64,000 nucleotides of DNA, from NCBI RefSeq assembly GCF_000204645.1, contig NC_015422.1, positions 2,497,001-2,561,000 of the forward strand, read 5' to 3'. This document shows, in pieces, positions 2,744 through 61,805 of the stretch. The notes under the pieces were generated by a model, which was not told the origin of the DNA, made no database searches, and worked only from the letters and a program-made list of their open reading frames with translations. This stretch comes from Alicycliphilus denitrificans K601. Lineage in GTDB: Bacteria > Pseudomonadota > Gammaproteobacteria > Burkholderiales > Burkholderiaceae_C. Position numbers and translations under genes: made by a program. Within the stretch, counting starts at the first letter, position 1, and each line of letters opens with the position of its first letter.

Positions 2744-2765
2744 CAGACTAGGAGGAACACACACC

Positions 2766-3167
2766 ATGGCTTATTCCGACAAAGTGATCGACCATTACGA
2801 AAACCCCCGCAACGTCGGTTCGTTCGACAAGGGCGACGACACCGTGGGCACCGGCATGGTGGGCGCGCCCGCCTGCGGCGACGTGATGAAGCTGCAGATC
2901 AAGGTGAACCCCGAGACCGGCGTGATCGAGGACGCGCGCTTCAAGACTTACGGCTGCGGCTCGGCCATCGCGTCGTCGTCGCTGGTGACCGAATGGGTCA
3001 AGGGCAAGACGCTGGACGAGGCGGCTGCGCTCAAGAACAGCCAGATCGCCGAGGAACTGGCGCTGCCGCCCGTGAAGATCCACTGCTCCATCCTGGCCGA
3101 GGACGCGATCAAGGCGGCCGTGAACGACTACAAGGCCAAGCACGAAGCGGCCGTGGAAGCCGCCTGA
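2766..3167 (+). CDS. iscU: Fe-S cluster assembly scaffold IscU
   Basis: Scaffold of 133 residues on which the 2Fe-2S cluster is built. Ligands are all present: Cys37, Asp39, Cys64, His106 and Cys107. The LPPVK motif (residues 100-104) that HscA recognises is intact. A strong ribosome site (AGGAGG) precedes the ATG. iscA starts 8 bp downstream. Confidence 0.97.
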
Positions 3168-7107: not shown

Positions 7108-7182
7108 GGGTGATTAGCTCAGCGGTAGAGCACTGCCTTCACACGGCAGGGGTCACATGTTCGATCCATGTATCACCCACCA
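7108..7182 (+). tRNA. tRNA-Val (CAC)
   Basis: A complete cloverleaf of 75 nt: acceptor GGGTGAT with ATCACCC, D arm AGCTCAGCGGTAGAGC, anticodon stem CTGCC/GGCAG with loop TTCACAC (anticodon CAC), T arm ACATG-TTCGATC-CATGT, and an encoded CCA end. It is the first of a tandem pair. Confidence 0.96.
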
Positions 7183-7216: not shown

Positions 7217-7291
7217 GGGCGATTAGCTCAGCGGTAGAGCACTGCCTTCACACGGCAGGGGTCACATGTTCGATCCATGTATCGCCCACCA
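7217..7291 (+). tRNA. tRNA-Val (CAC), second copy
   Basis: It is the same as the copy at 7108 apart from one acceptor base pair, which is changed on both sides: GGGCGAT with ATCGCCC in place of GGGTGAT with ATCACCC. The pairing is preserved. It is separated from the first copy by 34 bp and has encoded CCA. A terminator follows. Confidence 0.96.
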
Positions 7292-12120: not shown

Positions 12121-12148
12121 GCAGGTGCTCCTCATGTCTTGCCTGATT

Positions 12149-12199
12149 TAAAAATCATAGCTGCTGGCGCTTGGTATACAAGGTTTTCAGGTAGAAATT
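12149..12199. repeat. Palindromic repeat, copy 1
   Basis: Contains CATAGCTGCTGGCGCTTG and a degenerate GG-tail, the plus orientation of the repeat family described in the findings. It lies in the gap between prlC and the DUF4124 gene and faces copy 2 in inverted orientation. Confidence 0.7.
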
Positions 12200-12211
12200 A
12201 GCCTGAATCCA

Positions 12212-12244
12212 TTGGCTGGCAAGCGCTGGCAGCTCATTTTTTCA
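12212..12244. repeat. Palindromic repeat, copy 2 (opposite orientation)
   Basis: Contains GGCAAGCGCTGGCAGCTCAT. It ends over the stop codon of prlC. With copy 1 it could form a long hairpin. Confidence 0.65.
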
Positions 12245-14275
12245 TGATGCCATGCCCTGGTGGCGCAGCAGCGCGTCCAGCGTGGGCTCGCGGCCACGGA
12301 AGGCCTTGAAGGACTCCATCGCGGGGCGGCTGCCGCCGGCCTCCAGGATGCTCTGGCGGTAGCGCCGGCCGGTCCCGATGTCGGGCATGCCGTCCTCGCC
12401 GGCGGTTTCCTCGAAGGCGGCGTAGGCGTCGGCCGAGAGCACCTCGGCCCACTTGTAGCTGTAGTAGCCGGCCGCGTAGCCGCCCGCGAAGATGTGGCTG
12501 AAGCTGTGGGGCGTGCGGCTGAAGGCCGGGGGCCTGAGCACCGCGACCTCGTCGCGCACGCTCTCGAGCAGGGGCAGCGGGTCGTCCTTCGGGTCGTGCC
12601 CGGTGTGCAGCAGCATGTCGAACAGCGCGAACTCGATCTGGCGCAGCGTCTGCATGCCGGCCTGGAAGTTCTTGGCCGCGATCATCTTGTCGTAGAGCGC
12701 GCGCGGCAGGGGCTCGCCCGTCTCCACGTGGGCGGTCATGTGCCTGAGCACCTCCCACTCCCAGCAGAAGTTCTCCATGAACTGGCTGGGCAGCTCCACG
12801 GCATCCCATTCCACGCCGCTGATGCCCGAGACGTCGCGTTCGTTCACCTGCGTGAGCATGTGGTGCAGGCCGTGGCCGAACTCGTGGAACAGGGTGATCA
12901 CGTCGTCGTGCGTGAGCAGCGGCGGGCGGCCCTGCACGCCCTCGGCGAAGTTGCACACGAGGTGCGCCACGGGGGTCTGCAGCTGGCCCGTGTCGGGGCG
13001 CAGCCAGCGCGCGCGGGCGTCGTCCATCCAGGCGCCGCCGCGCTTGGCGTTGCGGGCGGGCTGGTCCAGGTAGAACTGGCCGACGAGCTGGCCGCCGCGC
13101 TCGATGCGGTAGAACTCCACGGCGGGGTTCCACACGGGGGCCTGGTCGGGGCGAATGGCGACCTCGAACAGCGTCTCGACGATCTTGAACAGCCCGGCCA
13201 ACACCTTGGGCGCCGGGAAGTACTGCTTGACCTCTTGTTCGCTGAAGGCATAGCGCGCCTCCTTGAGCTTTTCGGAGACGTAGGGCCAGTCCCAGGGCTG
13301 CGGGTCGGGCAGGTTCAGCTGTTCGGCGGCGAAGGCGCGCAAGTCGGCCACGTCCTTCTCCGCGAAGGGGCGCGCGCGGCGCGCGAGGTCGCGCAGGAAG
13401 TGCGTGACCTGCTCCGGCGTGTGGGCCATCTTGGGCACCAGCGATACCTGGCCGAAGTTGTCGTAGCCCAGCAGCCGCGCCTCTTCCTGGCGCAGCGCCA
13501 GGATCTCGGCCATGACGGCGCTGTTGTCGAAGCGCACGGCGTCGCCCGCGGCCTGGTCGGAGGCGCGCGTGACGTAGGCGTGGTAGAGCGTCTCGCGCAG
13601 CGCGCTGCTCCTGGCGAACTGCATCACCGGCAGGTAGCAGGGCATCTTCAGCGTGAGCTTGTAGCCCTCCTTGCCCTCTCCTTCAGCCGCGGCGCGCGCG
13701 GCCTGGACGACGTCGGCGGGCACGCCTTCGAGCTCATCGGCGCTCGCGTAGTAGGCGAAGGCGTCGGTGGCGTCGAGCACGTTCTCGCTGAATTTCTGCT
13801 GCAGCTCGGCCTGGCGTTCCTGGATGGCCGCGAAGCGCTGCTTGGCCGCGCCCTGCAGCTCGGCGCCCGAGAGGCGGAAGTTGCGCATGGCGTTGCCGAG
13901 GGCCTGGCGCTGCTCGGCGTTGAGCGTGGCAGGGTCGATGGCCTTGTACTTGGCGTACAGGCGCTCGTCGGCGCCCAGGCGGGTCCAGAACTCGGTGACC
14001 CGGGGCAGGGCGGCGTTGTAGGCGGCGCGCAGCTCGGGTGTGTCGGCCACGCTGCTCAGGTGGCTCACGGCGCCGAAGGAGCGGCCCAGTTCCTCGGTGG
14101 CCACGTCGAGCACGCGGGCTATCGAGTCCCAGCGCGCCGGGAAGTCCGGCTGGGTGACGGTTTCCAGCGCGGCGTTGGCGCGTTCGAGCAGCCGGTCCAC
14201 GGCCGGAGCCACGTCGGCCGGCGTGATGCGATCGAACGGGATGTGGCCGGAGAAGTCGAGGAGGGGGTTGTTCAT
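12242..14275 (-). CDS. prlC: Oligopeptidase A (M3 family zinc metallopeptidase)
   Basis: Cytoplasmic peptidase of 677 residues that degrades short peptides, including cleaved signal peptides. The zinc site is TLFHEFGHGLHH (HExxH), with the downstream ligand region containing ERDVSGISGVEWD. Length equals the family norm. The stop codon falls in repeat copy 2. Upstream, folD is on the same strand 37 bp away, so co-transcription folD-prlC is likely. Confidence 0.95.
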   Translation of the reverse strand: MNNPLLDFSGHIPFDRITPADVAPAVDRLLERANAALETVTQPDFPARWDSIARVLDVATEELGRSFGAVSHLSSVADTPELRAAYNAALPRVTEFWTRLGADERLYAKYKAIDPATLNAEQRQALGNAMRNFRLSGAELQGAAKQRFAAIQERQAELQQKFSENVLDATDAFAYYASADELEGVPADVVQAARAAAEGEGKEGYKLTLKMPCYLPVMQFARSSALRETLYHAYVTRASDQAAGDAVRFDNSAVMAEILALRQEEARLLGYDNFGQVSLVPKMAHTPEQVTHFLRDLARRARPFAEKDVADLRAFAAEQLNLPDPQPWDWPYVSEKLKEARYAFSEQEVKQYFPAPKVLAGLFKIVETLFEVAIRPDQAPVWNPAVEFYRIERGGQLVGQFYLDQPARNAKRGGAWMDDARARWLRPDTGQLQTPVAHLVCNFAEGVQGRPPLLTHDDVITLFHEFGHGLHHMLTQVNERDVSGISGVEWDAVELPSQFMENFCWEWEVLRHMTAHVETGEPLPRALYDKMIAAKNFQAGMQTLRQIEFALFDMLLHTGHDPKDDPLPLLESVRDEVAVLRPPAFSRTPHSFSHIFAGGYAAGYYSYKWAEVLSADAYAAFEETAGEDGMPDIGTGRRYRQSILEAGGSRPAMESFKAFRGREPTLDALLRHQGMAS

Positions 14276-15185: not shown

Positions 15186-15242
15186 TGAAAAAGCTGCCTA
15201 GCGCTTGACAGGTATGCGCCGGCAGCTGCGGAAATGATAGCG
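15186..15242. repeat. Palindromic repeat, copy 3
   Basis: Core AGCTGCCTAGCGCTTGACA, then CGCCGGCAGCTGC. It fills the gap between folD and the response-regulator gene and ends one base before the regulator's stop codon. Confidence 0.65.
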
Positions 15243-21330: not shown

Positions 21331-22980
21331 ATGGCATTGATTCAGATCCAGGTACCCGACATCGGGGACTTTGACGAGGTGGGCGTGATCGAGCTGCTGG
21401 TCAAGCCCGGCGATCAGGTCGCGGCCGAGCAGTCGCTGATCACCGTCGAGTCCGACAAGGCTTCGATGGAGATCCCGTCCAGCCACGCGGGCGTCGTGAA
21501 GGCGCTCACAGTGAAGCTGGGCGACAAGGTCAAGCAGGGCAGCGTGATCGCCGAGCTGGAAACGGCCGACGCGGCGGCTTCTGAGCCAAAACCGGCTCCG
21601 GCGCCCGCCAGCCAAGCGCTGGCAGCTGCGGAATCCATAGCGCCCGCGGCGGCGCCCGCAGCGCCCGCGGCAGGCGGCCGCATCGAGGTGCGCGTGCCCG
21701 ACATCGGCGACTTCAAGGATGTGGCCGTGATCGAGCTGCTGGTCAAGCCCGGCGACAACATCCGCGTCGAGCAGTCGCTGTTCACCGTCGAATCCGACAA
21801 GGCCTCGATGGAGATCCCGTCGCCCGCGGCCGGCGTGCTCAAGGAGCTCAAGGTCCAGCTGGGCGACAAGGTCAACATCGGGGACTTGGTGGCGGTGCTC
21901 GAAGGCGCCGCCCCGGCAGCGCCCGCCGCGCCGGCGCCTGCCCCCGCCCCCGCGGCGGCACCGGCCGCGCCCGTGGCTGCCGCGGCTGCAGCACCGGCGT
22001 CCGCGCAGTCCGCGCCCGCGCACGACCCCACGGCGACGCCATCGGGCCGGCTGCCGCACGCCAGCCCCTCGGTGCGCAAGTTCGCCCGCGAACTGGGCGT
22101 GCCGCTGGCCGAGCTCAAGGGCACGGGCCCCAAGGGCCGCATCACGGCAGAGGACGTGCAGTCCTTCACCCGCGCCGTCATGAGCGGCGCCGTGCAGACC
22201 CAGGCCCAGGCCGCCAAGGCCCCGGCCGGCGGCGGCAGCGGGGTGGGCATGGACCTGCTGCCCTGGCCCAAGGTGGACTTCAGCAAGTTCGGCGTGATCG
22301 AGCGCAAGGATCTTTCGCGCATCAAGAAGATCAGCGGCGCCAACCTGCACCGCAACTGGGTGATGATCCCGCACGTCACCAACAACGACGAGGCCGACAT
22401 CACCGAGCTCGAAGCCTTCCGCGTCTCCACCAACAAGGAGAACGAGAAGAGCGGCGTCAAGGTCACCATGCTGGCGTTCGTCATCAAGGCCGTCGTCGCC
22501 GCGCTCAAGAAATTCCCCGAGTTCAACACCAGCCTGGACGGCGACACCCTGGTCTACAAGAGCTACTACCACATCGGCTTCGCGGCCGACACGCCCAACG
22601 GCCTGGTGGTTCCCGTGCTCAAGGACGCCGACAAGAAGGGCATCCTGCAAATCAGCCAGGAGATGAGCGAACTGGCCAAGAAGGCGCGCGACGGCAAGCT
22701 GGGCGCGGCCGACATGCAGGGCGGATGCATGTCCATCTCGTCGCTCGGCGGCATCGGCGGCACGCACTTCACGCCCATCATCAACGCGCCCGAGGTGGCG
22801 ATCCTGGGCCTGTCCAAGGGCCAGATGAAGCCCGTGTGGGACGGCAAGCAGTTCGTGCCGCGCCTCACGCTGCCGCTGTCGCTGTCGTACGACCACCGCG
22901 TGATCGACGGCGCTGCGGCCGCGCGCTTCAACGCCTACCTCGGCCAAGTGCTGGCGGACTACCGCCGCATCCTGCTGTGA
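21331..22980 (+). CDS. aceF: Pyruvate dehydrogenase E2, dihydrolipoyl acetyltransferase
   Basis: Core enzyme of 549 residues. Two lipoyl domains each have the modified lysine in [11 protein letters not shown] (near residues 43 and 163). An E3/E1-binding domain follows ([15 protein letters not shown]), then the catalytic domain with [12 protein letters not shown]. Linkers are Ala/Pro-rich. The linker after the first lipoyl domain (residues about 84-104) is encoded by a copy of the window's palindromic repeat, in frame. Confidence 0.97.
21580..21642 (+). repeat. Palindromic repeat, copy 4, in frame inside aceF
   Basis: Shares ACCGGCTCCGGCGCC and CAAGCGCTGGCAGCT with the copy in lpdA. It is translated as [19 protein letters not shown] in the interdomain linker. 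Confidence 0.75.
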
Positions 22981-22993
22981 AGGAGACATCGTC

Positions 22994-24823
22994 ATGGCAG
23001 TGATTGACATCAAGGTGCCGGACATCGGCGACTTTGCCGAGGTCGGCGTGATCGAAGTGCTGGTGCAGGTGGGCGACACCATCAAGGCCGAGCAAAGCCT
23101 GGTCACGGTGGAGAGCGACAAGGCCTCCATGGAAATCCCCAGCAGCCATGCCGGGGTGGTCAAGGAGCTCAAGGTCAAGCTGGGCGACAAGGTGGCCGAG
23201 GGCTCGGTGCTGCTGACGCTGGAGGTGGCCGAGGGCGCGGCCGCGCCCGCGGCTGCACCTGTACAGGAAAAACCGGCTCCAGCGCCGGCCAGCCAAGCGC
23301 CGGCAGCTCCTGTCGCGATAGCAAGCAGCTTCGGCGGAACGGCGGACGTGGAGTGCGACGTGCTCGTCCTGGGCGGCGGCCCCGGCGGCTACTCCGCCGC
23401 GTTCCGCGCGGCCGACCTGGGCCTGAAGGTCGTGATCGTGGAACGCTACGCCACGCTGGGCGGCGTGTGCCTCAACGTGGGCTGCATCCCGTCCAAGGCG
23501 CTGCTGCACGTCGCGGCCGTGATGGACGAGGTGAGCCACCTGAAGAGCGCTGGCATCGACTTCGGCGCGCCGCAGGTCAACGTGGACAGCTTGCGCGGCC
23601 ACAAGGAAAAAGTCATTGGCAAGTTGACCGGCGGCCTGGCCGCCATGGCCAAGATGCGCAAGGTGACCGTGGTGCGCGGCTACGGCAGCTTCGTCGGCGC
23701 GAACCATGTGGAGGTGGAAGAAACTACCGGCGGTGGTCAGGACAAGACCGGCGGCAAGAAGGTCGTGGCCTTCCAGCGCGCCATCATCGCCGCGGGCTCG
23801 CAAGCCGTGCGCCTGCCCTTCATGCCCGACGACCCGCGCGTGGTCGATTCCACCGGCGCGCTCGCGCTGGCGGGCGTGCCGAAGCGAATGCTCATCCTCG
23901 GCGGCGGCATCATCGGCCTGGAGATGGGCACGGTGTACTCCACGCTGGGCGCGCGTCTGGACGTGGTGGAGATGCTGGATGGCCTGATGCAGGGCGCCGA
24001 CCGCGACCTCGTCAAGGTCTGGCAGAAGATGAATGCCCACCGCTTCGACAACATCATGTTGAAGACGAAGACCGTGGGCGCCGAGGCCACGCCCGAGGGC
24101 ATCAAGGTCACGTTCGCCCCGGCCGAGGAGGGCGGTACCGCCCCCGAGCCGCAGACCTACGACCTCGTGTTGCAGGCCGTGGGCCGCACGCCCAACGGCA
24201 GGAAGATAGGCGCCGAGAAGGCCGGCGTGGCGGTGACGGACCGCGGCTTCATCAACGTGGACATCCAGATGCGCACCAACGTGCCGCACATCTTCGCCAT
24301 CGGCGACATCGTGGGCCAGCCCATGCTGGCGCACAAGGCGGTGCACGAGGCGCATGTGGCGGCGGAGGTCATCGCCGGCGAGCTGCAGGGCGACAAGGCG
24401 CTGGCATCCGCCGCGTTCAACGCCCGCGTGATCCCGAGCGTGGCCTACACCGACCCCGAGGTCGCCTGGGTGGGCCTGACCGAAGACCAGGCCAAGGCCC
24501 AGGGCATCAAGGTGAAGAAGGGCCTGTTCCCCTGGACGGCTTCGGGCCGCGCGATTGCCAACGGCCGCGACGAGGGCTACACCAAGCTGCTGTTCGACGA
24601 CAGCCCCGAGGCGCATGGCCACGGCCGCATCCTTGGCGGCGGCATCGTCGGCACGCATGCGGGCGACATGATCGGCGAGATCGCCCTGGCGATCGAGATG
24701 GGCGCGGACGCCGTGGACATCGGCAAGACCATCCACCCGCACCCCACGCTGGGTGAGAGCATGGGCATGGCCGCCGAGATCGCCCACGGCAGCTGCACGG
24801 ACGTGCCGCCGCAGCGCAAGTAA
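22994..24823 (+). CDS. lpdA: Dihydrolipoamide dehydrogenase (E3) with N-terminal lipoyl domain
   Basis: FAD flavoprotein of 609 residues that reoxidises E2 lipoamide. Residues 1-80 form an extra lipoyl domain ([11 protein letters not shown]). A Pro/Ala linker follows, then FAD motif [12 protein letters not shown], redox disulfide [16 protein letters not shown] motif [13 protein letters not shown] and C-terminal HPHPTLGES with the catalytic His-Glu. Lipoyl-E3 fusions are known in several beta- and gammaproteobacteria. Linker residues about 91-110 come from an in-frame repeat copy. Confidence 0.97.
23264..23322 (+). repeat. Palindromic repeat, copy 5, in frame inside lpdA
   Basis: ACCGGCTCCAGCGCCGGCC then CAAGCGCCGGCAGCT, translated as [20 protein letters not shown]. 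Same orientation and frame as the aceF copy. Confidence 0.75.
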
Positions 24824-24843
24824 CGCTACTTTTCTCGTAGCTG

Positions 24844-25991: not shown

Positions 25992-26057
25992 CTCCCTACC
26001 CATTTCAGGCAGGCGGAGCGGGTCTACAATCTTGGCGGCGCTGTCAAATCAATAGCA

Positions 26058-26093
26058 CCCCACGCAGTTTCAGAAAGGGCTGTGCGGCTTTTT
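26058..26093 (+). terminator. Second copy of the lpdA terminator sequence (degenerate)
   Basis: CACGCAG..AAAGGGCTGTGCGGCTTTTT resembles GCGCAG..AAGGGCTGCGCGGCTTTTTT at 24848-24879. The stem has a mismatch, but the T-run is intact. It lies just before the Bug gene. Confidence 0.5.
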
Positions 26094-26120
26094 ATCTAAA
26101 AAACACAAGGAGATGGACCC

Positions 26121-27155: not shown

Positions 27156-28586
27156 ATGAGTCCTCCCGCTGATACCGCCAATCCGCCTGCTTCGCCGCAT
27201 CTCCTGCTGCGGGCATTGCGCGGCGCGGGTCCGCAGGGTGCCTCCGTGGCGCAATTATTGGCGCAATTACCCGGCGTACCGCGCCGCACGGCCCAGCGCT
27301 GGCTGGCGCAATGCGTGGAGGCGGGGCAGGCCCGCGCCATCGGGGCGGGGCGGGGGCGGCGCTACGTGGCCGTGCGCGCCATGCCGCCGCCCGCCGCCGT
27401 GCACCAGGTGCGCGAGAGTGCCGAGTCTTCCTGGAGCACCGACGACCTGCCCAGCGGCCTCGCGCTCTCGCCCGAGGGGCGCGAGGTCTGGGCCTACGTG
27501 AGCCAGCCGCTCACGGCCCGCGCGCCCGTGGGCTACCAGCGCGACTGGATCGACGGCTACGTGCCCGGGCGCATCTTCTACCTGCCCGAGCCCGTGCGGC
27601 GCCAGCTGCACGCCATGGGGCGCACGCCCGACGAGCAGGCCCCTGCGGGCACGTACAGCCGCGCGGTCCTCGACCGGCTGCTGATCGACCTGTCCTGGGC
27701 GTCGAGCCACCTGGAGGGCAACACCTATTCGCGCCTGGACACGCGCGAGCTGATCCGCCATGGCACTGCGGCCGAGGGCAAGGCGCGCATCGAGACGCAG
27801 ATGATCCTGAACCACAAGGCCGCGATCGAGCTGCTGGTGGACGCATCGGCCCAGCCCGGCCCGCCGTTCAGCCGCTACCTGCTGATGAACCTGCACGCCA
27901 CCCTGGCCGAGAACCTGCTGCCCAACCCGGCCGACGAGGGCAGGGTGCGCCAGCATGCGGTAGACATCGGCCAGAGCGTGTTCCGCCCGCTCGACGCGCC
28001 GCAGGTGCTCGACGAACTGGTCGACGTGCTCATCGCCAAGGCCAACGCCATCGCCGACCCGTTCGAGCAGGCGTTCTTCATGATGGTGCACCTGCCGTAC
28101 CTGCAGCCCTTCGCCGACATCAACAAGCGCACCTCGCGCCTGGCGGCCAATCTGCCGCTGTTCCGCGCCAACCTGTGCCCGCTGACCTTCGTGGACGTGC
28201 CGCCCGAGCTCTACGCGCGCGCCATGCTGGGCGTGTGCGAGATGGGCCGGGTGGAGCTGCTGCGCGACCTGCTCGTCTGGGCCTACGAGCGCAGCACGCA
28301 GGAATACGTCGCCATCCGCCAGACCCTGGCCGAGCCCGACCCGCTGCGCCTGGCGTGGCGCCAGCTCATCAAGGACACGGTGCACGCCGTCGTCACCCGG
28401 CCCGGCGCCGACGCCGTGGGGTTGGTGAAGCAGGCCGTGGCCGCCCACGTGCCCGGGCCCGAGCGCGCCGCTGTGCAGGCCCTCATCCTCGACGAGCTGC
28501 GCCGCCTGCACGAAGGCGTGCTGGCCCGCTACCGCCTGCGGCCCGGGCAGTGGCGGGATTGGATCGCGGCGCAGGGATGCTATTGA
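27156..28586 (+). CDS. Fic-domain protein with N-terminal helix-turn-helix and atypical motif
   Basis: Protein of 476 residues. A winged-helix-like N-terminus (about 10-70; VPRRTAQRWLAQC) precedes a Fic core. An inhibitory-helix motif SSHLEGN (S-x-x-x-E-G-N) is present. The Fic motif reads LQPFADINKRTSR (from about residue 316): Gln stands where the catalytic His of HPFx(D/E)GN(G/K)R is expected. Fic enzymes transfer AMP or other groups to target hydroxyls; loss of His makes normal catalysis doubtful. The stop lies within repeat copy 6. Confidence 0.88.
   Translation: MSPPADTANPPASPHLLLRALRGAGPQGASVAQLLAQLPGVPRRTAQRWLAQCVEAGQARAIGAGRGRRYVAVRAMPPPAAVHQVRESAESSWSTDDLPSGLALSPEGREVWAYVSQPLTARAPVGYQRDWIDGYVPGRIFYLPEPVRRQLHAMGRTPDEQAPAGTYSRAVLDRLLIDLSWASSHLEGNTYSRLDTRELIRHGTAAEGKARIETQMILNHKAAIELLVDASAQPGPPFSRYLLMNLHATLAENLLPNPADEGRVRQHAVDIGQSVFRPLDAPQVLDELVDVLIAKANAIADPFEQAFFMMVHLPYLQPFADINKRTSRLAANLPLFRANLCPLTFVDVPPELYARAMLGVCEMGRVELLRDLLVWAYERSTQEYVAIRQTLAEPDPLRLAWRQLIKDTVHAVVTRPGADAVGLVKQAVAAHVPGPERAAVQALILDELRRLHEGVLARYRLRPGQWRDWIAAQGCY
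27248..27268. repeat. Inverted partner of the fic upstream operator
   Basis: GGCGCAATTATTGGCGCAAT is nearly the reverse complement of 27133-27152 (one base inserted and one changed). Confidence 0.5.
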
Positions 28587-28636
28587 TTTGGTAGCTTCAA
28601 GCGCTTTTTTTATGGGTGCTGGAGGCATTTTCATAT
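28580..28636. repeat. Palindromic repeat, copy 6
   Basis: TTGGTAGCTTCAAGCGCTT, then GTGCTGGAGGCATTTTCAT. It spans the stop of the Fic gene and the gap to lysR. Confidence 0.6.
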
Positions 28637-29540: not shown

Positions 29541-29562
29541 TGAAGTCCCCTCGAATTTCTGA
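29383..29562 (+). pseudogene. Tn3-family transposase, N-terminal fragment
   Basis: A ribosome site GGGGAGGA precedes the ATG. The 53 native codons read like a DUF4158 start (YRYRFVGYEKLPSG, LPDRLVKEIRDSN, YHLGLAVL). The last seven codons lie in the IS3 end. Family assignment is by resemblance to the general DUF4158 pattern. Confidence 0.55.
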
Positions 29563-29567
29563 GCCAA

Positions 29568-29990
29568 TCAGAAGTAGAGGTTGGGGAACAGTTTGACACG
29601 GTATTCGACCGGTGGGATTCGGCCGAGGGCTTCGTGGGGTCGATGGTGGTTGTATCGGTGCAGCCAGTCGGCCGTCATGTCACGCACCTCCTGCAGGCTG
29701 TCGAAGACGTAGCAATCGAGCACCTCGGTACGGTAGGTCTTGTTGAATCGTTCGACATAGGCGTTCTGCGTGGGCTTTCCGGGCTGGATGTGATTGAGAG
29801 CAATGCCCTTGCTCTGCGCCCATTGCGCTAAAGCATGGGCGATGAACTCCGGGCCGTTGTCCAAGCGAATCGACAGCGGTGCACCGCGTACTTCCACCAG
29901 TTCGTTCAAGGCCCGGATGACGCGAGCAGCCGGCAGGCTGGTGTCGACCTCGATGCGCAAGCCTTCGCGGTTGAACTCGTCGATGACGTT
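29568..29990 (-). pseudogene. IS3-family transposase OrfB, C-terminal part
   Basis: Continues from the N-terminal part at 32485-32874 across the inner element. It contains DDE residues Asp in SIRLDNGPEF and Glu in AYVERFNKTYR, and ends VKLFPNLYF. Joining the parts at the 8-bp duplication (29991-29998 equals 32485-32492) gives an uninterrupted frame RRFRTF-NVIDEF. Confidence 0.9.
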
Positions 29991-33158: not shown

Positions 33159-33221
33159 GTAGAGACTCCTGCCGGGGGAATTCTCTACTTCCGGGTGGTT
33201 CAGGTTTTCGAGGGGACTTCA

Positions 33222-33457: not shown

Positions 33458-34447
33458 ATGTTTTCCGCCATGCCTTCCATTTCCCGCCGCCGGCTCCTGC
33501 TCGCCGCCGCGGCGGCGCCCCTGGCTGCCCATGCCGGCCTTGCGCAGGCGCAGGGCAAGGAGACGACCATCATCGTCGGCTACCCGCCCGGCGGCTCGCT
33601 GGACGCCATGGCCCGCGTGCTCGCGCAGCGCCTGGGCGCGCTGCGCGGCCAGCCCGTCATCGTGGACAACAAGCCGGGCTTCTCGGGCAACATCGGCGCG
33701 CAGTTCGTGGCCAAGTCCAGGCCCGACGGCAGCACGCTGCTGATGACGGCGCTGACCACCTACGCCATCAACCAGAAGCTGATGGGCCCCAGCATGGGCT
33801 ACGACCTGCTCAAGGACTTCCAGCACGTGGCCATCGTGGGCTATCTGCCCAACGTGCTCATCGTGCCGACCGTCCTGGGCGTGAACACCCTGCAGGACTT
33901 CATCAAGGCGGCCAAGGCCAGGCCGGGCGGCCTCTCCATCGCCACCACCGGCAACGGTTCGCTGGAGCACATCGCCGGCGAGATGTTCAAGCGCGCCACC
34001 GGCACCGACATGCTGGCCGTGCCCTACAAGGGCTCCACGCCCGGCGTGACGGACCTGATCGGCGGGCAGATCCAGGCTATGTTCGTCAACACCACCACGG
34101 CCATCAACAACCTCAAGACCGGCCGCATCAAGGCGCTGGCCATCGCCGGCCCCAGCCGCGTGGCGGCGCTGCCCGGCGTGCCCACGCTGGCCGAGCAGGG
34201 CGTGAAGATGAGCAACGACGTGGTGTCCATCTTCGGCATCGCCGCGCCGGCGGCCACGCCCGCGCCAATGGTCGAAAAGCTCAACGCCGACCTGAACGCC
34301 GTGCTGCGCGAGCCGGAGGTGAACGCCCGGTTCTCGGGCCTGGGCGTGGAAGTGGTCACCGAAAGCGCCGACCATGCGCGCGAGCGCATCGCCAGGGAAG
34401 TGGCCACCTGGGACAAGGTGATCCGCGAGACGGGCATCGCTCTCTGA
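33458..34447 (+). CDS. Tripartite tricarboxylate transporter substrate-binding protein (Bug family), Tat-type signal
   Basis: Periplasmic receptor of 329 residues. A twin-arginine-like signal (SRRRLLLAAAAAP) precedes TTIIVGYPPGGSLDAMAR, VDNKPGFSGNIGAQ and PTLAEQG. The ATG at 33458 follows AAAGGAA; a TTG at 33437 is possible. It has probably lost its native promoter because the upstream gene is truncated by the deletion. Confidence 0.92.
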   Translation: MFSAMPSISRRRLLLAAAAAPLAAHAGLAQAQGKETTIIVGYPPGGSLDAMARVLAQRLGALRGQPVIVDNKPGFSGNIGAQFVAKSRPDGSTLLMTALTTYAINQKLMGPSMGYDLLKDFQHVAIVGYLPNVLIVPTVLGVNTLQDFIKAAKARPGGLSIATTGNGSLEHIAGEMFKRATGTDMLAVPYKGSTPGVTDLIGGQIQAMFVNTTTAINNLKTGRIKALAIAGPSRVAALPGVPTLAEQGVKMSNDVVSIFGIAAPAATPAPMVEKLNADLNAVLREPEVNARFSGLGVEVVTESADHARERIAREVATWDKVIRETGIAL

Positions 34448-34450
34448 TCC

Positions 34451-34501
34451 TGATTCGATAGCTGCAGGCACTTGCCGGCAAAGCGTCGGAGGCCATTTTC
34501 A
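34451..34501. repeat. Palindromic repeat, copy 7
   Basis: GATAGCTGCAGGCACTTGCC, then AAGCGTCGGAGGCCATTTTC. Lies between the Bug and methyltransferase genes. Confidence 0.7.
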
Positions 34502-36165: not shown

Positions 36166-37050
36166 ATGAACACTCCCCGCATCGGCCTGGTCGGCGTGGG
36201 CCTGATGGGCCACGGCATCGCACTGAACATCGCGCGCAAGGGCCATGCCCTGACGGTGCTGGAGCACCCCGGCAACCAGCCGCTGGACGAGCTGCGCGCC
36301 CTGGGCGTGGCCAGCGCCGCAACGGTGCAGGACCTTGCGCGGCAGGTGCAGGTGCTGATCCTGTGCGTGACCGGCTCGCCGCAGGTCGAGGCAGTGCTGC
36401 TGGGAGAGCAGGGCGCGCTGGCCACGCTGCAGCCGGGCACGGTGGTGATCGACTGCTCCACGGCCATTCCCGCGTCCACCGAATCGGTGGCCAGGGCCGT
36501 GACGGCGGCTGGGGGGCGCTTCCTGGATGCGCCCATGACGCGCACGCCCCGGGAGGCCGCCGAGGGCCGCCTGAACCTGCTCGTGGGCGGCGACGCTCAG
36601 CTGCTGCAGGAATGCCTGCCCCTGCTGCAGTGCTTTGCCGAGAACATCACCCACACTGGCGCCGTGGGCAGCGGCCACCGCATGAAGCTGCTGCACAACT
36701 ACGTGTCGCTGGGCAGCGTGGCGCTGATCGCCGAGGCCGCCGCCTGCGCGCTGGCCGCGCAGGTCTCGCCGCAGGTGTTCGTGGACGTGCTCGCCAAGGG
36801 CGGCGGCGGCGGCGTGGCGCTGGAGCGCCTGCGGCCCTACCTGCTGCAGCAGGACCCGTCCGGGCTGCGCTTCTTCATGTCCAACGCGCTCAAGGACATG
36901 GGCTACTACACCACCATGGCGCAGGACGGCGCCGCCGCGCATGGCATCGCCCAGGCCGTGCACGACACCTTCGCCAGCGCCGTGGCCGAGGGCGGGCCGC
37001 AGCGGCTGGTGCCCGAGCTGGTTGCGATTCTGGGTAAAAACACGCTCTAG
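36166..37050 (+). CDS. NAD(P)-dependent beta-hydroxyacid dehydrogenase
   Basis: Protein of 294 residues of the 3-hydroxyisobutyrate dehydrogenase family. N-terminal Rossmann motif IGLVGVGLMGHGIA, substrate motif LDAPMTRTPREAAEG, and catalytic lysine region GHRMKLLHNYV. Substrate could be tartronate semialdehyde, 3-hydroxyisobutyrate or a similar hydroxyacid. A ribosome site (GAGAG) is weak. Confidence 0.9.
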   Translation: MNTPRIGLVGVGLMGHGIALNIARKGHALTVLEHPGNQPLDELRALGVASAATVQDLARQVQVLILCVTGSPQVEAVLLGEQGALATLQPGTVVIDCSTAIPASTESVARAVTAAGGRFLDAPMTRTPREAAEGRLNLLVGGDAQLLQECLPLLQCFAENITHTGAVGSGHRMKLLHNYVSLGSVALIAEAAACALAAQVSPQVFVDVLAKGGGGGVALERLRPYLLQQDPSGLRFFMSNALKDMGYYTTMAQDGAAAHGIAQAVHDTFASAVAEGGPQRLVPELVAILGKNTL

Positions 37051-37070
37051 CGCTTATCCAGAAAGCGCTG
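37049..37070. repeat. Partial palindromic repeat, copy 8
   Basis: AGCGCTTATCCAGAAAGCGCT forms a perfect 7-bp inverted repeat right after the dehydrogenase stop. It resembles the core of the repeat family. Confidence 0.4.
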
Positions 37071-37339
37071 GTGCTGGATCAGGCCCGAGCGCAGCACCTC
37101 GGGCTGGTGTAGGGCAGGCCCAGGGTCGCGTCGGCGCGCAGCGCATCCGGCGGGAGCAGGGCGGCCGTCGACAGCGAGGCCATCGGCGGCGCGGTCGTGG
37201 CCTTGGCGGGGGCGGGCTCCCAGCGCGCCCGCGCGGGCCGTCACGAGCAGGCGTGCCGTGCCCGTCCAGGCGGGCGGATGGCGCGGCGTGCTGCGCCCGG
37301 CCGGGGCCGTCTGCGCAACTGGCTGGCGGCGGCGCAGGC
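37067..37339. other. Gap with no recognisable gene
   Basis: Between the dehydrogenase and the broken PQ-loop gene. Frames on the minus strand are open but of low complexity and I recognise nothing. It may be degenerate coding sequence. Confidence 0.4.
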
Positions 37340-46187: not shown

Positions 46188-46200
46188 GCGACGCGCTCTT

Positions 46201-46254
46201 CAATCCATAGCTGTTCCCGCTTGCTGGACGGGTGCTGGAGGCATTTCTTTTATG
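46201..46254. repeat. Palindromic repeat, copy 9
   Basis: CCATAGCTGTTCCCGCTTGC, then GGGTGCTGGAGGCATTTC. Between ynfA-like gene and the PEP-CTERM gene's terminator. Confidence 0.65.
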
Positions 46255-50804: not shown

Positions 50805-54064
<3,260 letters not shown>

Positions 54065-55003: not shown

Positions 55004-55126
55004 AGCCTGGAAAAACCGGTAAGCCATTGATTTCAAATGATTGGCGGTATAAAGCAGGCCTTTCCTCCGCCCGGCCCCTGGCGCCGCCCATGGCCCATGC
55101 CGTCCGGCCTCAAGGGATGAAAGCTT

Positions 55127-55180
55127 CCAATTCCATAGCTGCCAGCGCTTGCTGCACAAGCGCTGAAGGCCATTTTTATT
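55127..55180. repeat. Palindromic repeat, copy 11 (well preserved)
   Basis: CCATAGCTGCCAGCGCTTGC, then CAAGCGCTGAAGGCCATTTT. A near-ideal copy that ends about 10 bp before the start of the PBP1A gene. Confidence 0.8.
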
Positions 55181-59427: not shown

Positions 59428-59486
59428 TTCTATGATCAAAATGCCTCCAAGCGCTTGTGTGACAAGCGCCTGCAGCTATTCTTGTT
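59428..59486. repeat. Palindromic repeat, copy 12 (well preserved)
   Basis: CAAAATGCCTCCAAGCGCTT, then GACAAGCGCCTGCAGCTATT. It separates the Nudix and FAA hydrolase genes. Confidence 0.8.
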
Positions 59487-59489
59487 GAA

Positions 59490-60185
59490 TCAGACCAGCG
59501 CCACGCGCAGCCGGCCCAGGCCATCGATGCCGCCCTCCAGCACGTCGCCGCGCACCACGGCGCCCACGCCCTCGGGTGTGCCCGTGAAGATCAGGTCGCC
59601 GGGCTGCAGCTCCCAGGCGGCCGACAGGTGCTCGATGGTCTCGGCAATGTTCCAGATCAGCTGATCGACCGTGCTGCGCTGGCGGTCGGCGCCGTTGACC
59701 TGCAGCCAGATCGCGGCGCGCTCCACGTCGCCTGCCTGCGCGGCGGGCGTGATGGGGCCGATGGGCGCGCCGGCATCGAAGCCCTTGCCGATGCACCAGG
59801 GGCGGCCCTGCTTCTTCATCTCGCCCTGCAGGTCGCGGCGCGTCATGTCCAGGCCCACGGCGTAGCCCCAGATGTGTTGGCGCGCATCGGCCGCCGCGAT
59901 GTTCCTGCCGCCCTTGCCGATGGCCACCACCAGCTCGATCTCGTGGTGCAGGTCCTTGGTGAGCGAGGGGTAGGGCATGCTGCCCGTCTCGCCCGCGCTC
60001 ACGGGCAGCACGGCGTCGGCCGGCTTCATGAAGAAGAAGGGCGGCTCGCGGCCGGTGAAGCCCATCTCCTTGGCATGCTCGGCGTAGTTGCGGCCCACGC
60101 AGTAGATGCGGTGCACGGGAAAGCGATCGGCCGATCCCAGCACGGGAACGCTGGCCTGGACGGGGGCGGGAATCACATAGCTCAT
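59490..60185 (-). CDS. Fumarylacetoacetate hydrolase family protein (fumarylpyruvate hydrolase-like)
   Basis: Protein of 231 residues. Motifs RIYCVGRNYAEHAKEMG, PFFFMKPADAV, HHEIELVVAIGKGG, and FTGTPEGVGAV with metal-binding Glu. Divergent from the maleylacetoacetate isomerase-like gene with 113 bp between them; the two together fit the last steps of gentisate breakdown (maleylpyruvate to fumarylpyruvate to fumarate and pyruvate). The ring-cleaving dioxygenase is not in the window. Confidence 0.9.
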   Translation of the reverse strand: MSYVIPAPVQASVPVLGSADRFPVHRIYCVGRNYAEHAKEMGFTGREPPFFFMKPADAVLPVSAGETGSMPYPSLTKDLHHEIELVVAIGKGGRNIAAADARQHIWGYAVGLDMTRRDLQGEMKKQGRPWCIGKGFDAGAPIGPITPAAQAGDVERAAIWLQVNGADRQRSTVDQLIWNIAETIEHLSAAWELQPGDLIFTGTPEGVGAVVRGDVLEGGIDGLGRLRVALV

Positions 60186-60298: not shown

Positions 60299-60964
60299 AT
60301 GAAGCTCTACAACTACTTCCGCTCCTCGGCATCGTTTCGCGTGCGCATCGCGCTGGAGCTCAAGGGCCTGCCCTATGACTATGTGCCCGTGCACCTGCAG
60401 AAGGGCGAGCAGCGGGCCCCGGCCTATGCCAGCCGCCTGGGCGACGCGCTGGTGCCGGCGCTGCAGACCGATGACGGGCACCTGCTCGCGCAGTCCATGG
60501 CCATCATCGAATACCTGGACGAAACCCACCCCGAGCCGCCGCTGCTGCCCGGCGGTGCCCTGGCGCGTGCCCACGTGCGGGCGCTGGCGCAGATGGTGGC
60601 CTGCGAGATCCACCCGCTGAACAACCTGCGCGTGCTCAAGTACCTCAAGCACCAGCTGAAGGTGCCGGACGCGGCCAAGGACGACTGGTACCACCACTGG
60701 GTGCGCCAGGGCCTGGAGGCCTTCGAGCGCCAGCTGGCGCTGCTGGACCGGGAGCGCGCCGCCGCGGGCCTGGCGCCCTCGCGCCTGTGCTGGGGCGACG
60801 CGCCCACGCTGGCCGACTGCTGCCTGGTGCCGCAGATCTTCAACGGCCAGCGCTTCGGCGTGGACCTGGGCGGCCTGTCGCGCACCATGGCCGCGTTCGA
60901 GGCCTGCATGCAGCTGCCGGCCTTCCAGCGCGCCCAGCCCAGCGCCTGCCCGGACCATGAGTGA
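60299..60964 (+). CDS. maiA: Maleylacetoacetate/maleylpyruvate isomerase (GST zeta)
   Basis: Protein of 221 residues. N-terminal thioredoxin-fold motif RSSASFRVRIAL (SSxSxRVR) binds glutathione; C-terminal helical domain (LCWGDAPTLADCCLVPQIF). Partner of the divergent FAA hydrolase. Stop overlaps the pgeF start by 8 bp. Confidence 0.92.
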   Translation: MKLYNYFRSSASFRVRIALELKGLPYDYVPVHLQKGEQRAPAYASRLGDALVPALQTDDGHLLAQSMAIIEYLDETHPEPPLLPGGALARAHVRALAQMVACEIHPLNNLRVLKYLKHQLKVPDAAKDDWYHHWVRQGLEAFERQLALLDRERAAAGLAPSRLCWGDAPTLADCCLVPQIFNGQRFGVDLGGLSRTMAAFEACMQLPAFQRAQPSACPDHE

Positions 60965-61805
60965 GCCCGTGGCGCACCCCGTTCCCCACGACTGGCTGCA
61001 GCCCGACTGGCCGGCCCCCGCCCACGTGCGCGCGCTGTGCACCACGCGCAACGGCGGCGTGAGCACGCCGCCGTACGACAGCTTCAACCTGGGCCGCTAC
61101 GTGGGCGACGCCCCCGAGGCCGTGCAGGCCAACTGGGCCGCGCTGCAGGCGGCCCTGGGTGCCGGGGGGCGGCCCGTGCGGCCGGTGTACCTGCGCCAGG
61201 TGCACGGCACGGACGTTCTGCCGCTCGACAAGGACACGCCCGAGGGCGCCGACGCCGACGCCTGCACCACCCGGGCGCGGGGCGTGGCCTGCGTCGTCAT
61301 GGCGGCGGACTGCCTGCCCGTGCTCTTCACCGACCGCGCGGGCACGCGCGTGGCGGCCGCCCATGCGGGCTGGCGCGGCCTGGCCACGGGGGTGCTGGAA
61401 GAGACATTGAAGCAATTTCTGGCTCCAGGCCATGCGAGGCAAGCGCCGGCAGCTATCGAAGATGAAGCGCCGCGATCGCCCGGCGACGTGATCGCCTGGC
61501 TGGGCCCCTGCATAGGCCCGCAGGCCTTCGAGGTCGGCCCCGAGGTGCGCGATGCCTTCTGCGCGCAGGACCCGCAGGCCGCCCGGCATTTCAGGCCCCA
61601 CGGCGGCGCGGGCAAGCTGCTGGCCGACCTGGCGGGACTGGCGCGCCAGCGCCTGCGTGAGCGGGGCGTGACGGCGCTCTACGGCAACGACGGCTCGCCC
61701 GCCTGGTGCACCGTGGGCAACCCTTCACGGTTCTTTTCGCACCGGCGCGACAGCCCCGTGCTCGGCACCAGCGGGCGCATGGCCGCCTGCGTCTGGCTGA
61801 CCTGA
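60957..61805 (+). CDS. pgeF: Peptidoglycan editing factor PgeF / purine nucleosidase (laccase-domain)
   Basis: Protein of 282 residues, longer than the usual 240-260. Ligand motifs RQVHGTDV, MAADCLPVLFTD and AAAHAGWRGL are all intact. Residues about 151-171 (LKQFLAPGHARQAPAAIEDE) come from an in-frame copy of the palindromic repeat between HAGWRGL and WLGPCIGP. Overlaps maiA by 8 bp and the convergent small membrane protein gene by 81 bp. Confidence 0.94.
   Translation: MSEPVAHPVPHDWLQPDWPAPAHVRALCTTRNGGVSTPPYDSFNLGRYVGDAPEAVQANWAALQAALGAGGRPVRPVYLRQVHGTDVLPLDKDTPEGADADACTTRARGVACVVMAADCLPVLFTDRAGTRVAAAHAGWRGLATGVLEETLKQFLAPGHARQAPAAIEDEAPRSPGDVIAWLGPCIGPQAFEVGPEVRDAFCAQDPQAARHFRPHGGAGKLLADLAGLARQRLRERGVTALYGNDGSPAWCTVGNPSRFFSHRRDSPVLGTSGRMAACVWLT
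61407..61469 (+). repeat. Palindromic repeat, copy 13, in frame inside pgeF
   Basis: TTCTGGCTCCAGGCC, then CAAGCGCCGGCAGCTATCGA. Translated as QFLAPGHARQAPAAIED in the same frame as the other genic copies. Confidence 0.75.

Follow-up and report, generated by a model that had tools for sequence, protein, structure and literature searches.

A short palindromic repeat is translated in frame within the lipoyl linkers of AceF and LpdA of Alicycliphilus denitrificans K601 and related bacteria

The pyruvate dehydrogenase (PDH) genes aceF and lpdA of Alicycliphilus denitrificans K601 lie next to each other in a stretch of 64,000 nt (contig NC_015422.1, positions 2,497,001 to 2,561,000), hereafter called the window. 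The linker after the first lipoyl domain of AceF and the linker after the sole lipoyl domain of LpdA each contain 19 residues (encoded at 21586-21642 and 23267-23323) whose DNA belongs to a palindromic element of 53-56 nt repeated in this genome. The two 53-nt segments are 83% identical and share orientation and frame, as had been stated in an initial annotation of the window, and both DNA strings quoted there for the two linkers are found exactly as quoted. At equal positions of the element both copies use ATA for Ile and AAA for Lys, codons that make up 5% and 9%, respectively, of those for the two amino acids. A profile search of the window yielded 15 non-overlapping places, aceF and lpdA included, and a stricter profile made of intergenic copies only yielded 12 at 12 bits or more, the places at 24825, 26040 and 51930 falling below (Table 1). 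Depending on the profile, the repeat is therefore present at 10-13 further places, in agreement with the initial annotation. In the following we show that the linker segments are real copies of the element, which confirms that earlier observation and supports its interpretation.

A first nhmmer profile was based on the window copies; for a second one, 95 intergenic copies were taken from 1.264 Mb of the host genome (0.9-1.7 Mb, 4.3-4.7 Mb and the window, with 12.5 kb of masked N), referred to below as the sample. The consensus comprises 53 nt with the inverted arms CAGCGCTTG and CAAGCGCTG. The pattern CCAGCCAAGCGCYGGCAGCT (up to three mismatches) matches 83 times in the 5.07-Mb genome and the core pattern CAAGCGCTGGCAGCTAT (up to two mismatches) 261 times; the reversed pattern and the reversed control both give 0 matches. 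The sample holds 140 copies of at least 18 bits and 164 of at least 12 bits, its reversed sequence none of at least 12 bits. Of the 140 copies, 102 are intergenic, 13 lie at gene edges and 25 within called genes; on average there is one in 38.6 kb inside called genes and one in 2.9 kb outside them. At 17.6 bits the lpdA copy narrowly misses this threshold. Called genes make up 76% of the sample compared to a coding share of 90% given for the A. denitrificans K601T genome in PMC3692508, so that some of the intergenic copies may sit in missed genes. Copies between genes (108) are distributed over 71 tandem, 33 convergent and 4 divergent gaps, classes that account for 66, 20 and 13.5% of all bases between genes (p = 0.001), with a median distance to the gene 3' end of 10 nt in tandem and 6 nt in convergent gaps. 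Where two copies are less than 120 nt apart they stand in -/+ orientation (6 of 6 pairs).

The consensus RNA is predicted to form a hairpin of -25.1 kcal/mol (z -3.9). The copies in aceF (z -1.8) and lpdA (z -0.6) fold little better than shuffled sequence. Conservation per position in the asymmetric core reaches 88-97% for AAGCGC and 96-99% for AGCT. No base pairs were found by a covariance model of 13 window copies, which makes this model, R1, sequence-only, and in an Rfam scan of the copies no family reached its gathering score. The initial annotation described one reading frame as free of stops. This does not hold, as no frame is uniformly open: in 100 intergenic copies the linker frame is without stops 68 times and the remaining five frames 59, 33, 10, 49 and 48 times.

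AceF linker 1, AceF linker 2 and the LpdA linker were surveyed in named loci and in host relatives. The panel consisted of the best 80 of at least 577 aceF loci, 20 further stretches and 10 of 30 lpdA loci, the remaining 20 coming from genomes that were represented already. Counts exclude nine identical linkers. A threshold of 10 bits was set after the scan with the window profile, and other thresholds were computed as well. With the intergenic-only profile 40 of 304 linkers match at 10 bits or more, namely 18/94 of AceF linker 1, 3/106 of AceF linker 2 and 19/104 of the LpdA linker. The window-only profile gives 25/97, 3/99 and 28/98, and some linkers pass with this profile only, e.g. the lpdA linker of genome G019 (16.0 bits). 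Codon-shuffled linkers match in 0 of 6080 and synonymously recoded linkers in 5 of 6080 cases, and each of the 40 real matches outscores all 20 of its own synonymous recodings. Hence the linker DNA, and not only the peptide, derives from the element. Furthermore, 39 of the 40 matches share a single orientation and frame; if frame use were proportional to openness, 25% (68 of 267 open frames) would be expected in this frame, and the corresponding binomial probability of 2e-22 ignores shared ancestry and serves as a guide only. The remaining match, which is reversed in aceF linker 2 of locus L049, may be due to chance. In the linker frame the intergenic consensus translates to KWPPALVQQALAAIVLI and the majority sequence of the linker copies is KPAPAPAAQAQAATESV. 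The linkers consist of 42-48% Ala and 17-19% Pro, and those with the element are richer in Lys, Glu and Gln than the others. As control, 35 linkers were taken from 19 genomes, each from a different family of the order other than the host's (19 of 24 such genomes were examined). None of them exceeds 2.1 bits with either profile, which excludes plain convergence of Ala/Pro linkers. The initial annotation had named the presence of the same residues in other families as the finding that would reduce the similarity to convergence; the likeness is absent from those families, and in the linkers that show it, it extends to the DNA level.

The element is common between the genes of Acidovorax-like bacteria. 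Of 150 family genomes surveyed, 48 contain one or more model matches with an E value of 1e-4 or better, and in 28 at least 27 of 37 scored candidates match. Model counts per genome derive from at most 150 scored candidates (37 in the family survey) and are lower bounds. Genomes expected to be poor or distant gave counts of 0 (G012, G038, G046) or 1 (G021, G023). Among host relatives the element is present in 13 of 25 linkers of rich genomes, defined by a pattern count of at least 40 or a model count of at least 100 (the latter for 12 genomes only), and in 1 of 23 linkers of poor genomes (Fisher p = 0.0003). The 25 linkers of rich genomes (3021 nt) contain 10 copies of at least 18 bits, i.e. 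one per 302 nt, and 13 copies of at least 10 bits, i.e. one per 232 nt, compared with the one in 38.6 kb (called genes) and one in 2.9 kb (elsewhere) that the host sample gives at 18 bits. Among 94 loci the element is found in aceF only in 8, in lpdA only in 7 and in both in 8. On a tree of these loci (quick IQ-TREE, support by SH-aLRT alone, no locus with an incomplete aceF or lpdA) the element labels do not form clades and require at least 12 changes for aceF and at least 14 for lpdA, gains and losses taken together. The aceF-lpdA pair of L058, titled as a metagenome-assembled genome of Akkermansia muciniphila, falls among Limnohabitans on this tree and probably belongs to a misassigned bin.

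Lipoyl linkers are not the only translated sites. The copy inside yfiH/pgeF had not been named as genic in the initial annotation. YfiH of the host genus (seven genomes), G015 and G009 is about 17 residues longer than in outgroups of the same order. The extra residues follow the pattern xAxxA(I/T)xxxA in the same frame as in the linkers, and eight of the nine longer genomes score at least 12 bits at this site with one of the two profiles, G001 lying below. A segment in mutS resembles the element in reverse orientation, with 16.5-35.6 bits in seven genomes and 20.2 bits in G001 (window profile). In the host genus and G015 (L190:4697-7717; L223-L228, L231) this reverse segment largely keeps its palindrome. 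Pfam and NCBIfam were searched with ten proteins that contain internal copies, and orthologues were compared for yfiH and mutS only. The 18 well-internal copies of the sample use the linker frame in eight cases (including aceF, lpdA and yfiH), one reverse frame in five and other frames in five (p = 0.06). Thus random frame and orientation, the second finding that was to speak against an element, is rejected for the linkers and not for genes genome-wide, where the preference for the linker frame is weak. Some other internal copies (UbiD, edge matches) may be miscalled start codons. One copy lies near residue 1023 of a protein of 1968 residues with UvrA matches in both halves (L202:2764-8667).

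Other repeats were found translated in the same linkers. The lpdA linkers of G003, G001 and G006 read SPSPAGAGEGRGEGG...SPQPSPASGRGG, which corresponds to a second repeat, CCCTCACCCCAACCCTCTCCC. This repeat matches 106 times in G003, 100 in G006, 71 in G001, 44 in G004, 3 in G021, once in the host and 0 times in G012. The aceF linker of L073 reads VRAEPVEA...STSSGRT, and the third repeat behind it, GTTCGGGCTGAGCCTGTCGAAG, has 143 matches in its genome and 0 in the control; the linker of L041 resembles this repeat, with only 9 matches in its genome versus 2 in the control. Three different resident repeats are thus translated in PDH linkers. Nothing else speaks as strongly for the linker as a landing place and against a PDH function of this one motif. 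By eye, some aceF linkers appear to hold double copies of the first element (L022, L042), and eroded versions seem to stand beside intact ones (L010 versus L009, L112 versus L115). Moreover, aceF linker 1 of L127 and L130, which represent two genera, shares the segment PPVGGSEVVPGAS...ARAADTAGAG.

Orthologous gaps were compared between the host and four relatives. In 89 site-by-relative comparisons the element is present on both sides in 8, on one side in 5 and on neither in 76. Three of the one-sided comparisons, at two sites, differ in length by 48, 48 and 55 nt and another by 289 nt; the fifth differs by 3 nt, and here the relative carries an apparent decayed copy. At window positions 2744-2766 (L308-L310, L317-L319) the gap of G004 and G005 is 48 nt longer and contains the element, the host being without it. 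Here the AGGAG end of the element directly precedes the start codon of the following gene, which looks as though the repeat provided the ribosome-binding site.

Taken together, we consider it likely that the linker segments are copies of a short non-autonomous palindromic repeat which was inserted as a unit and kept where the protein tolerates it. Most copies of this repeat of about 53 nt stand a short distance after a gene 3' end, where the RNA can form a hairpin, and the few sites that allow a view of gain or loss point to a unit of about 50 nt. Genic copies would mostly be purged and survive where some 18 extra residues are tolerated. The lipoyl linkers of AceF and LpdA may be such tolerant sites, being flexible, Ala/Pro-rich and free in length, with one frame of the element that suits. 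In the opposite orientation the copy would place a hairpin and a U-rich stretch into the RNA, so copies in sense orientation may avoid a terminator within the operon. After insertion the palindrome would be lost and the sequence drift to plain Ala/Pro, leaving the linker open to a new repeat.

Several observations weigh against this explanation. First, the relatives fit it only in part: the initial annotation proposed to look for absence of the segment in relatives, which holds for scattered relatives, and the length step expected of an insertion is seen for yfiH and not for aceF or lpdA, as linker length is unchanged by the element (median 41 versus 39 residues in aceF, 40 versus 40 in lpdA) and no empty site was found. 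The mutS segment is length-neutral as well and cannot be explained by simple insertion, and yfiH loops of intermediate length occur in the element-free family members G008, G011 and G014. Secondly, the rich genomes G001, G006, G009 and G019 have no linker match of at least 10 bits, G004 carries the first element in its linkers despite its 44 matches of CCCTCACCCCAACCCTCTCCC, and the linkers of G021 read GEGRGEG although this genome has so few matches of that repeat; owing to G004 and G021 the agreement between linker and genome repeats is a tendency. Thirdly, of 100 copies 38 retain a stem with 7 of 8 pairs and 45 have T4 after the minus strand, and tandem intergenic copies are only weakly biased in orientation (44 versus 27, p = 0.057). 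Finally, G003 and G006, which are about 99% identical, have all their comparable copies in common (22 of 22 and 21 of 21, with 2 and 10 further copies lacking coverage) and give no sign of recent movement, the pair being too closely related to reveal it. A mobiliser was not found either: the only Y1-type transposase gene of the genome is not flanked by the element, its 3.3-kb locus contains none, and among 22 genes located between two copies the 12 inspected by eye are not transposase-like. A REP-associated tyrosine transposase (RAYT; REP, repetitive extragenic palindrome) is therefore unsupported as mobiliser. This sole Y1_Tnp gene (L001) sits between 26-nt inverted repeats, TTAATTGGGGTC..., a separate unit without the element.

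A more far-reaching version, which we regard as possible and put forward tentatively, is that in these bacteria the palindromic repeats of a genome, whichever they are, serve to build and renew the Ala/Pro linkers of PDH. Each repeat would come in through the frame that suits a linker, erode to plain Ala/Pro and then be replaced. If true, much seemingly featureless linker would consist of repeat relics, and selfish hairpins would have a permanent landing site there. The three resident repeats, the apparent double copies and the seemingly eroded versions hint at this.

It is unlikely that the aceF and lpdA copies go back to one event, either duplication of a lipoyl-linker module or gene conversion between linkers. 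The flanking lipoyl domains are indeed paralogous (73%), and the element copies of aceF and lpdA are more alike within genomes (identity 0.75, 10 genomes) than between them (0.68). However, the 8 aceF-only and 7 lpdA-only loci stand beside 8 with both, and AceF linker 2, which also follows a paralogous lipoyl domain, matches in only 3 of 106 cases, one of them reversed. At most, a single event accounts for the pairing, not for the element. Somewhat less probable still is that the motif is a selected or driven binding or uptake site, comparable to DNA uptake sequences, which arose in genes by point mutation. Its length-neutral presence in the linkers and mutS, the strongly conserved asymmetric core and the stability of copies between close genomes would fit such a site, but a unit of 53 nt is long for it, and neither the length steps of about one unit at yfiH and two intergenic sites nor the two other repeats in the same linkers are accounted for. 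We give equally little credence to the idea that the element is a transcription terminator or an RNA-processing hairpin behind genes, with coding copies as read-through relics. Its location at 3' ends, its depletion between divergent genes and a hairpin that is U-rich on one side agree with this, yet the copies in the middle of AceF, LpdA, yfiH and mutS are left unexplained and T4 is present in fewer than half of the copies examined (45/100); a terminator role of the intergenic copies may hold alongside insertion of a mobile repeat. Convergence, by which similar codons of Ala/Pro linkers merely mimic the repeat, draws on the high Ala and Pro content of the linkers and the Ala-rich frame of the element and is, for the linker set as a whole, practically eliminated by the shuffled and recoded controls, by the 35 linkers of other families and by the ATA and AAA codons at equal positions of both window copies.

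Palindromes that code for protein have been known chiefly from the intracellular genera Rickettsia and Wolbachia. They occur in some REP-rich genomes as well (PMC3733652). Rickettsia palindromic elements (RPEs), described by Ogata, Claverie and colleagues, are interspersed palindromes of about 150 bp that are found in frame in unrelated genes (review PMC10969869). The analogy to RPEs drawn in the initial annotation is apt, as here too an interspersed palindrome occupies intergenic and coding DNA and is translated in frame inside genes. Insertion in frame relative to orthologues is seen in yfiH (17 residues), while aceF, lpdA and mutS are without a length step. Compared with RPEs as the review describes them, the element is shorter (53-56 nt), resides in free-living Betaproteobacteria and reuses one kind of linker. 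GTAG/CGTC REPs (Di Nocera and colleagues 2013) are hairpins near gene 3' ends which form dimers and in part lie in ORFs (open reading frames), and the intragenic ones include uvrA and other repair genes, according to the sections of PMC3733652 that treat them. The element resembles GTAG REPs in its proximity to gene 3' ends (median 10 and 6 nt) and in the opposite orientation of close pairs (6/6). It differs from them in that GTAG stands at the end (model positions 50-53) of only 16 of 100 intergenic copies, ATAG in 22, and in that no RAYT is flanked by element copies; Acidovorax, Delftia, Variovorax and Comamonas are absent from the main text of PMC3733652. BRE (Hot and colleagues 2011) occurs in Betaproteobacteria including Comamonadaceae, with some copies wholly in coding sequence. 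It is about 90 bp long, and the genomes tabulated for it have no more than 29 copies each, Acidovorax sp. JS42 a single one (PMC3110155); the present element (53 nt, 261 core matches in the host) differs in size and copy number. The enterobacterial RU elements of Delihas are small mobile repeats with reading frames, also intragenic, and are given as 103-168 bp in other hosts in the passages devoted to them (PMC2759123, PMC2229807). In PMC2755013, as far as its relevant passages go, "palindromic" concerns CRISPR. The initial annotation knew of no published account of this repeat as protein-coding material in Comamonadaceae; likewise, neither the element nor the use of lipoyl linkers by repeats is described in the open-licence literature searched, a scope without subscription papers or preprints. 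Coding REPs and RPEs as such are already known.

The element belongs to a free-living family with many comparable species, in which the path of selfish hairpins into protein can be traced on a tree. PDH linkers offer a natural assay for this, with one site, one frame and differing repeats. Such repeats could be one origin of disordered, low-complexity linkers, and they call for caution in annotation and in linker-based trees.

Table 1. The genes aceF and lpdA and the copies of the palindromic element in the 64-kb window.
Feature	Position	Strand	Basis
aceF, dihydrolipoamide acetyltransferase E2, two lipoyl domains	21331..22980	+	ORF; Pfam Biotin_lipoyl x2, E3_binding, 2-oxoacid_dh
Element copy, AceF linker between lipoyl domains 1 and 2, translated	21586..21641	+	26.1 bits, intergenic-only profile
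lpdA, dihydrolipoamide dehydrogenase E3, N-terminal lipoyl domain	22994..24823	+	ORF; Pfam Biotin_lipoyl, Pyr_redox_2, Pyr_redox_dim
Element copy, LpdA linker between lipoyl and FAD domains, translated	23267..23322	+	17.6-17.7 bits, intergenic-only profile
Element copy inside yfiH/pgeF (60957-61805), linker frame	61413..61468	+	Profile; about 17 residues more than same-order outgroups
Intergenic copy, -/+ pair with the copy 12193..12247, 5 nt apart	12140..12189	-	Profile
Copy at 3' end of minus-strand gene, pair partner of 12140..12189	12193..12247	+	Profile
Intergenic copy	15186..15241	+	Profile
Diverged copy, directly after lpdA stop codon	24825..24880	-	Below 12 bits with stricter profile
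Diverged intergenic copy	26040..26095	-	Below 12 bits with stricter profile
Copy overlapping gene 3' end	28579..28634	-	Profile
Gene-boundary copy	34446..34501	-	Profile
Intergenic copy	37034..37087	+	Profile
Intergenic copy	46195..46250	-	Profile
Diverged copy	51930..51986	+	Below 12 bits with stricter profile
Intergenic copy, top score of the window (52.2 bits)	55123..55178	-	Profile
Copy near 5' end of an ORF of a simple gene finder, probably intergenic	59436..59491	+	Profile

Two further repeats were observed in the window. A 39-nt inverted repeat (29541-29579 and 33183-33221, 82% complementary, 3.6 kb apart) could represent the ends of a mobile unit, and two tandem tRNA genes (7108-7182 and 7217-7291) are 97% identical.

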